Source: Candidatus Peribacteria bacterium
GTDB lineage: Bacteria; Patescibacteriota; Gracilibacteria; UBA1369; 2-02-FULL-48-14
Assembly: GCA_943357175.1 (NCBI GenBank)
Contig: CALRGE010000004.1
Coordinates: 1-36,419, forward strand
Reading direction: 5' to 3'
DNA length: 36,419 nt
The notes under the pieces are model-generated. The model had not been told where the DNA came from, ran no database searches, and worked only from the letters and a program-made list of their open reading frames with translations. How positions within the stretch are numbered: the first letter of the stretch is position 1; every line of letters starts with the position of its first letter. Made by a program: the position numbers and the translations under genes. Positions 62 through 590 of this stretch are shown here, piece by piece.

Positions 62-68
62 TAATTAA

Positions 69-435
69 AAACCGACCCTAATTCCTGTTTGTAGAGAATC
101 TATATATAGTTCAATCAAACTTTTATGGGAGTAGAGTCGGTTTCGTGAATGGCGACGAACTCATTCTGTTTTTGTTTTTTTCTGCCTTATTTTGGTCGGG
201 TTTATGGCCGGACCGGGGCTGCCCTTGGCGTGGAAGTGGCCGCTGTAACCGAAGTCAGGGAGCAGGAAACGCAAGTCCACAGAGCGATATGAGAGTCTGT
301 CTCTCATGGGTTCCCTTGTCTAGAGAACCATCACAAAGCGAGAAAGAAAATTGTCGATGTTTTATCGACCGCTTACCATCACGCTTAGTGCTGGGTAATC
401 CGCCTTTCAGCGGACTACTTTTTATTTTTGTTTTT
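69..435 (+). ncRNA. Candidate structured non-coding RNA of unknown family
   Basis: The 638 bases before the first gene contain a dense series of possible stems on the + strand. A long 5' hairpin pairs AAACCGAC (69-76) with GTCGGTTT (136-143), CTAATTCC (78-85) with GGGAGTAG (127-134, one mismatch and one G-U) and GTTTG (87-91) with CAAAC (116-120). Further on are ATGAGAG/CTCTCAT (289-295/301-307), GTTC/GAAC (310-313/325-328) and GTCGAT/ATCGAC (353-358/364-369), ending in an intrinsic terminator. Bases about 195-285 are clearly GC-richer than the surrounding genome, as expected for a structured RNA in an AT-rich chromosome. Size (about 350 nt) would suit RNase P RNA or tmRNA. However, I cannot find the conserved RNase P core words, the tmRNA TTCGAC start, a tag ORF or a T-loop. 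Family and exact ends are unknown. A 129-codon GTG ORF runs across it but does not look like a protein. Confidence 0.45.
399..435 (+). terminator. Intrinsic terminator of the candidate ncRNA
   Basis: TCCGC (399-403), a 6-nt loop and GCGGA (410-414) form a GC-rich stem. It is followed by CTAC and a long T-rich tract (about 419-435). This is the clearest Rho-independent terminator in the window and sets the strand of the RNA. Bases 436-590 beyond it are AT-rich and I see nothing in them. Confidence 0.65.
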
Positions 436-590
436 GTGTTTTCAATGTGCCTTGGTGAATTCAATGTTTGTCTTACTGAATTCATGTCATTATATCCCCC
501 TTTGATCTTTTTGCAAATAATATTACTCGACTAGTGGCGAAATATATTTTACAATGCTAGATTTTCAGGTAGAGCACGTATCGCTTTCTA

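Follow-up and report, generated by a model that had tools for sequence, protein, structure and literature searches.

The start of the window (the whole stretch of 36,419 nt that was analysed, from a Candidatus Peribacteria bacterium) is, judged from sequence comparisons, a standalone noncoding RNA gene of ~420 nt on the minus strand, running from ~482 to ~67. It was delimited by its promoter, its fold (z −4.5), and a covariance-model match at 117–347, with both ends inferred (the 5′ end ~7 nt past the −10 box, and the 3′ end at the U-run). We rate the RNA as a new class, and its biological role may in time group it with an already known kind of RNA.

A predicted sigma70-type promoter lies at 489–517 (minus), and can be read as TTTGCA-17-TATAAT or as TTGCAA-16-TATAAT (−35 box at ~516–511, −10 box at 494–489; 10/12 consensus matches). 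In many copies, e.g., L102, L103, L079, and L100, the −35 box is abutted upstream by a TGTCYA-NNN-TARWATT element, which is only weakly kept in the window copy and could function as an UP element, or as a regulator site serving both the RNA and the divergent gene. The 3′ terminator was predicted from the fold as a long hairpin at 67–143 (minus), in which 143–136 pair with 76–69, with an inner stem and a U5 run at 71–67; this long, interrupted terminator escaped both the simple hairpin/T-run finder and the pattern scan. A conserved UGAUAGA segment appears as a bulge within the terminator stem of many homologs, and the stem carrying this bulge may have a role beyond termination. Across minus 489–65, 0/100 shuffles reached the folding energy of the native sequence. 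A protein-coding reading was dropped, the core containing no long conserved ORF (median of the longest ORF across it: 45 codons on the RNA strand versus 46.5 on the other).

The RNA was assigned to the minus strand because G·U wobbles outnumber A·C at paired positions when the homologs are read on this strand (447 versus 153, or 364 versus 108 in non-seed rows alone), the plus strand swapping these roles. Three further features were compared between the strands. A hairpin followed by a T-run was present 3′ of the core in 72/93 copies; the equivalent position for the opposite strand, beyond the far end of the core, had one in 36/93. Sigma70-like sites scoring at least 10.5 were located upstream on the RNA strand in 53/91 homologs versus 12/91 on the other strand. 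The motif AAAA[CT]AAAA was found 3′ of the core in 69/100 homologs on the RNA strand versus 1/100 on the other, and 5′ of the core in 58/100 versus 2/100. Wobbles, promoters, terminators, and A-rich linkers across the homologs thus all indicate that the transcript is the minus-strand one. The original prediction had described a structured RNA of ~350 nt at 69–435 with a strong terminator on the same (plus) strand. Its reality and approximate size were borne out by z-scores, conservation, and covariation, and its strand and ends had to be corrected. The supposed plus-strand terminator at 399–424, where a T-rich run comes after a hairpin of 5 bp, consists of this hairpin and the A/C-rich linker 1 of the RNA read backwards, and the run has the same orientation in most homologs. 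Strand errors arising from a reading of raw sequence can hence be settled by wobble statistics of homologs.

From 5′ to 3′, the RNA is predicted to consist of a 5′ hairpin, an A/C-rich tether, the core, a second A/C-rich tether, hairpin H6, and the terminator hairpin, the core being formed by helix H1, which would close a multibranch loop with H3, H4, H5, and an H-type pseudoknot (all coordinates in this paragraph refer to the minus strand). The 5′ hairpin (GAAUUCAGU...AUUGAAUUC, 456–484) was taken from the MFE fold, and its outermost bases either coincide with the estimated start or lie just upstream of it. Linker 1 (GAAAACACAAAAACAAAAAUAAAAA, 419–443) is A/C-rich and single-stranded, with AAAA[CT]AAAA kept 5′ of the core, and is adjoined by a variable hairpin of the MFE fold (GUAGUCCGCUGAAAGGCGGAUUAC, 395–418), which on the plus strand is the “terminator-like” site. 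The 5′ strand of H1 was located at 333–342 and its 3′ strand at 181–190 (AUAAGGCAGA in the window copy; consensus GCAAGGCAG), and helices 1 and 2 were paired in 87.5% and 91.7% of the alignment cells. Inside the multibranch loop, compensatory changes were recorded for 6/6 pairs of hairpin H3 (309–329), for 5/5 pairs of hairpin H4 (UGAGAG...CUCUCA, 290–306; 71.3% paired), and for 5/5 outer pairs of H5 (221–285; 85.2% paired), which comprises an internal loop and an apical hairpin. The pseudoknot (194–220) was derived from the alignment rows and is made up of stem S1 (220–217 with 209–206), stem S2 (214–211 with 197–194), and an A-rich loop (205–198); S2 is absent from the models and yet covaries. 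Linker 2 (AAAAAAACAAAAACA, 166–180), also A/C-rich and single-stranded, is found in 69/100 homologs and leads to H6 (GAAUGAGUUCGUCGCCAUUC, 147–166), i.e., helix 10 of the 93-row alignment, whose loop GUC can pair with the loop GAC of H3 in many homologs. Read on the RNA strand, the core has the approximate consensus CAGRCGGUC-GUGG-NN-CGACU-GAAAAYA-NNCC-AAAGCAAGGCAG. The window copy is atypical in that its outer S1 pair is A·C on the RNA strand (G·U on plus); its H3–H6 loop pairing comprises 3–4 bp only.

The secondary structure of the core, as deduced from aligned homologs, is well supported. For the seed, 17 copies were aligned with MAFFT (alignment A3) and the structure was obtained by inspection of those same sequences, yielding model R2; 30/48 pairs were compensatory, a number that 0/500 shuffles reached, and 78.5% of the cells paired, compared to 39–46% for slid structures. 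Among 93 copies aligned with R2 (alignment A4), 41/43 pairs had changes on both sides, 79.6% of the cells paired (35–47% in the slid controls), and the covariation score was 0.419 (at most 0.103 for slid structures), whereby pairing is inflated by the fitting of alignments A4 and A7 to the models. The 93 rows include L143, L146, and L147, which look like chance matches and were not counted as members. The test of stem S2 is more independent, because S2 cannot form part of a covariance model: 84.7% of its 419 cells paired, changes on both sides occurred in 37 cells versus 16 when shuffled, and its covariation score was 0.235 versus 0.130 (0/500 shuffles), while the counts of pairs and of pair types, two of five measures, were not above the shuffles. 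In many copies, the H3 loop (UGACYAA) is complementary to the H6 loop (UURGUCA). Contiguous H3–H6 pairs averaged 5.43 between own partners versus 5.04 between permuted ones, with 1/2000 permutations as good, in a test that took in 54 of the 87 loops, namely those with GAY. RNAalifold applied to the seven closest copies placed the pseudoknot region in either of two conflicting registers, a choice that was resolved only with the wider set.

BLASTn searches against 59 genomes (the host’s own and relatives) recovered clear copies within the window’s family (f1), two of whose genomes, G002 and G005, carry two copies each. In G005 (L023), the whole RNA is duplicated in tandem, ~516 bp apart; the whole-RNA duplicates of G002 (L006, L022) are ~2.5 kb apart and have genes in between. 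Matches beyond f1 mostly covered the T-rich linker alone (A-rich on the RNA strand) and were set aside; the one in G053 (L011) corresponds to linker 1 of a true copy. A first model on the plus strand (R1) served only to find distant homologs in the order and was superseded by R2 and R3. At an E-value of ≤ 0.01, R2 matched 78/353 genomes of the class, 67 of them in the window’s order and 11, weakly, elsewhere; 76 of its 93 matches lay outside its own seed. R3 was built from 23 diverse, shorter copies, because alignment A5, with its 40 matches, had too great a width for a model to be built from it. With R3 (E ≤ 0.001), the RNA was detected in 68/89 genomes of the window’s order (Candidatus Peregrinibacteria), or 48/62 when restricted to good-quality genomes, and 33 of the 68 positive genomes contained two matches. 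The 21/89 order genomes without an R3 match include all eight of family f13, in which either loss or strong divergence could have occurred. This family comprises G017, G028, G035, G042, G047, G052, G057, and G082, of which G047 alone has a weak R2 match.

Beyond the order, a phylum sample of 379 genomes contained 15 with an R3 match; 14 of these belong to the order, and the remaining match is weak. Lowering the stringency to E ≤ 0.05 gave matches in 8/38 genomes of the order of G276 and in 3/9 of the order of G217; several of these weak class-level matches share the pseudoknot block, and they were kept apart from the members. The window copy (117–347, minus) scored 177.6 bits with R2 and 129.7 bits with R3, values that are not independent, as it belongs to both training sets. 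It possesses the features by which the new family is recognised, namely an H1 multibranch in which H3, H5, and the H-type pseudoknot covary, and, after the pseudoknot, a 3′ strand of H1 resembling GCAAGGCAG. A degenerate pattern of the pseudoknot retrieved 21 loci from named genomes, 12 of them with a strong R3 match, and the remaining loci, which lie in other bacteria, seem to have been hit by chance. By title, the 12 strong loci belong to Candidatus Peregrinibacteria (seven), and one each to Candidatus Gracilibacteria, Patescibacteria group, “bacterium,” Nitrospirota, and Nitrospirae. The loci with Nitrospirota and Nitrospirae titles (L214, L220) bear the RNA at 83–85 bits with scores and coordinates equal to those of G065 and G063, and these titles look mislabelled. 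A phage origin was rejected, there being no phage match and 0 viral contigs with the pseudoknot pattern.

Comparison with known RNA families was based on Rfam 15. No family reached its gathering score in the whole window, relaxed searches with the window copy returned chance-level matches only, and searches with nine divergent homologs gave nothing at E ≤ 1 except one sub-threshold miRNA match at the edge of the core (31.1 bits versus a cut-off of 90). The RNA matched neither the RNase P RNA model (RF00010) nor, with its tRNA-like domain, the tmRNA model (RF00023), and it gave no match to the model of small SRP RNA (RF00169) including the Ffh-binding S domain; the 6S, GOLLD, ROOL, and OLE models likewise matched neither the window copy nor the nine homologs. 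Within the window, ARAGORN predicted neither a tRNA nor a tmRNA gene. In the open-licence PMC subset, no paper on the RNA was found. The host genome (G000; 1.23 Mb, 20 contigs) encodes RNase P RNA (contig C1, 162 bits) and tmRNA (contig C17, 114 bits) elsewhere, in agreement with the original prediction, which had recognised neither in the region. Having considered both a diverged form of a class already known and a new class, that prediction had proposed an Rfam search and a covariation analysis with homologs as checks. The former produced no good match and the latter strong covariation, neither of which refutes the prediction of a structured RNA that may be a new class; the chance-level Rfam matches, together with the single sub-threshold hit among nine homologs, speak against a divergent known class.

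Regarding gene neighbourhood, the nearest upstream ORF was divergent in 78/96 copies. In the window, this side is occupied by SdaAB (L-serine dehydratase beta chain, Pfam PF03315; 639–1325, plus), which is divergent and lies outside the RNA. The nearest downstream ORF was convergent in 71/95 copies, an arrangement differing from that of a riboswitch or leader, which precedes its target gene and shares that gene’s strand. Neighbours were labelled with reference proteins for 101 matches from 99 hand-chosen sources; relative to the 91 R2 sources, 19 were added and 11 left out (L117, L132, L134, L137, L141–L144, and L146–L148). An upstream label was obtained for 69/101 copies (DnaQ-like 29, SdaAB 19, CofE-like 16, DUF881 5) and a downstream label for 41/101 (MscS 22, CarA 19). 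Every labelled neighbour at both ends lies on the strand opposite the RNA, which was therefore considered an independent gene. Many copies fall into one of two arrangements, and in a FastTree phylogeny of the core, locus type and tree position largely agreed, with several weak nodes, and the overall pattern is suggestive of two old loci, A (carA / RNA / dnaQ) and B (mscS / RNA / sdaAB or cofE). In the window’s family, the RNA is situated between eno and sdaAB. Bases 1–149 of the window exactly repeat the terminal 149 bases of the eno-bearing contig C6 (L002, 1442–1590); the assembly break falls inside the RNA locus, and the window contig starts between eno and sdaAB.

We consider it probable that this standalone minus-strand RNA of a new family acts in trans, with the core as its functional part and the A/C-rich tethers holding proteins. 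The RNA would be stable and well transcribed, its folded core would constitute the functional unit, and, going by the layout of the molecule, the two unstructured tethers may each be occupied by protein. The AAN triplet repeats of the tethers would presumably favour a protein that binds single strands, for example Hfq (through its distal face), a cold-shock protein, or ribosomal protein S1. Such an RNA could serve as an RNP scaffold or could regulate by sequestering protein, and would then be broadly comparable to 6S or CsrB RNA. Because the RNA is kept across most of an order, its job is probably basic, and the presence of a second copy in roughly half of the carrier genomes, together with order-wide retention, makes an important role likely. 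More tentatively, and with somewhat less than even confidence, it may be a housekeeping-like, order-wide RNA present as two old paralogues, which forms an RNP or RNA-only particle and takes over a job done elsewhere by another RNA or protein, in an order in which SRP RNA is undetectable.

Some alternatives would tie the locus to its neighbours. An RNA on the plus strand, e.g., a 5′ leader or riboswitch of sdaAB, is scarcely credible: plus 60–440 does fold better than shuffles (z −2.7; 1/100 as good) and offers the hairpin and T-run at 399–424, but wobbles, promoters, terminators, and linkers favour the minus strand, SdaAB is the labelled neighbour in 19/101 copies only, and the neighbours at both ends are on the opposite strand. 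A cis-acting antisense or divergent-promoter element for the neighbouring genes (the 3′ end of eno, sdaAB, dnaQ, cofE) would account for the divergent promoters and for neighbour pairs being kept per locus type; it is nevertheless improbable, as the same fold occurs beside different genes and some copies, e.g., L006 in f1, have no labelled neighbour at all.

Other alternatives grant a trans-acting RNA and differ in its kind. That it is a strongly diverged 6S-like RNA binding RNA polymerase is about as doubtful as the cis-acting element: a standalone gene with its own sigma70-type promoter and often two copies per genome would agree with it, whereas neither the window copy nor the nine homologs match 6S RNA in Rfam, and a multibranch core with a pseudoknot departs from the single long stem with an open bubble that defines 6S RNA. 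A replacement for SRP RNA is very improbable. It would fit the finding that RF00169 matched 0/89 order genomes at E ≤ 1, the host’s own included, while 12/14 control genomes matched, but the RNA itself shows no SRP-like match at E ≤ 10, and the whole pathway may be gone, a Vampirococcus paper (PMC8080830) reporting two SRP subunits as absent from many CPR bacteria; because of this absence and the dissimilarity to SRP RNA, such a replacement is not claimed. A homo-oligomeric “ornate” RNA, held together by loop–loop contact between molecules, is unlikely, although by analogy an RNA-only oligomer would be a serious rival, since the RNA is large, its H3 and H6 loops are capable of kissing, and PMC12286853 describes homo-oligomers with kissing loops for ROOL, GOLLD, and OLE. 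Pairing of H3 with H6 within one molecule is, against this, equally possible. The RNA is also smaller than ROOL, GOLLD, and OLE.

As a class, the RNA contributes a secondary structure with good support, a pseudoknot that covaries, and a covariance model ready for use, and it provides a handle on the biology of Peregrinibacteria, whose genomes are small and in whose order SRP RNA is also undetectable. Among known RNAs, class A RNase P RNA likewise has a compact multihelix fold of comparable length, tmRNA is of comparable length and contains H-type pseudoknots, and small bacterial SRP RNA shares the housekeeping-type distribution. 6S RNA likewise has a gene of its own, frequently present more than once per genome, but forms one long stem with an open bubble in place of the multibranch, H-type pseudoknot, and A-rich tethers described here. 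GOLLD, ROOL, and OLE are likewise large standalone structured bacterial RNAs with loop–loop contacts and little-known or unknown function; these families are larger than the ~420-nt RNA, which differs from them in its helices and which, in the searches made, was seen only in Peregrinibacteria and their relatives.
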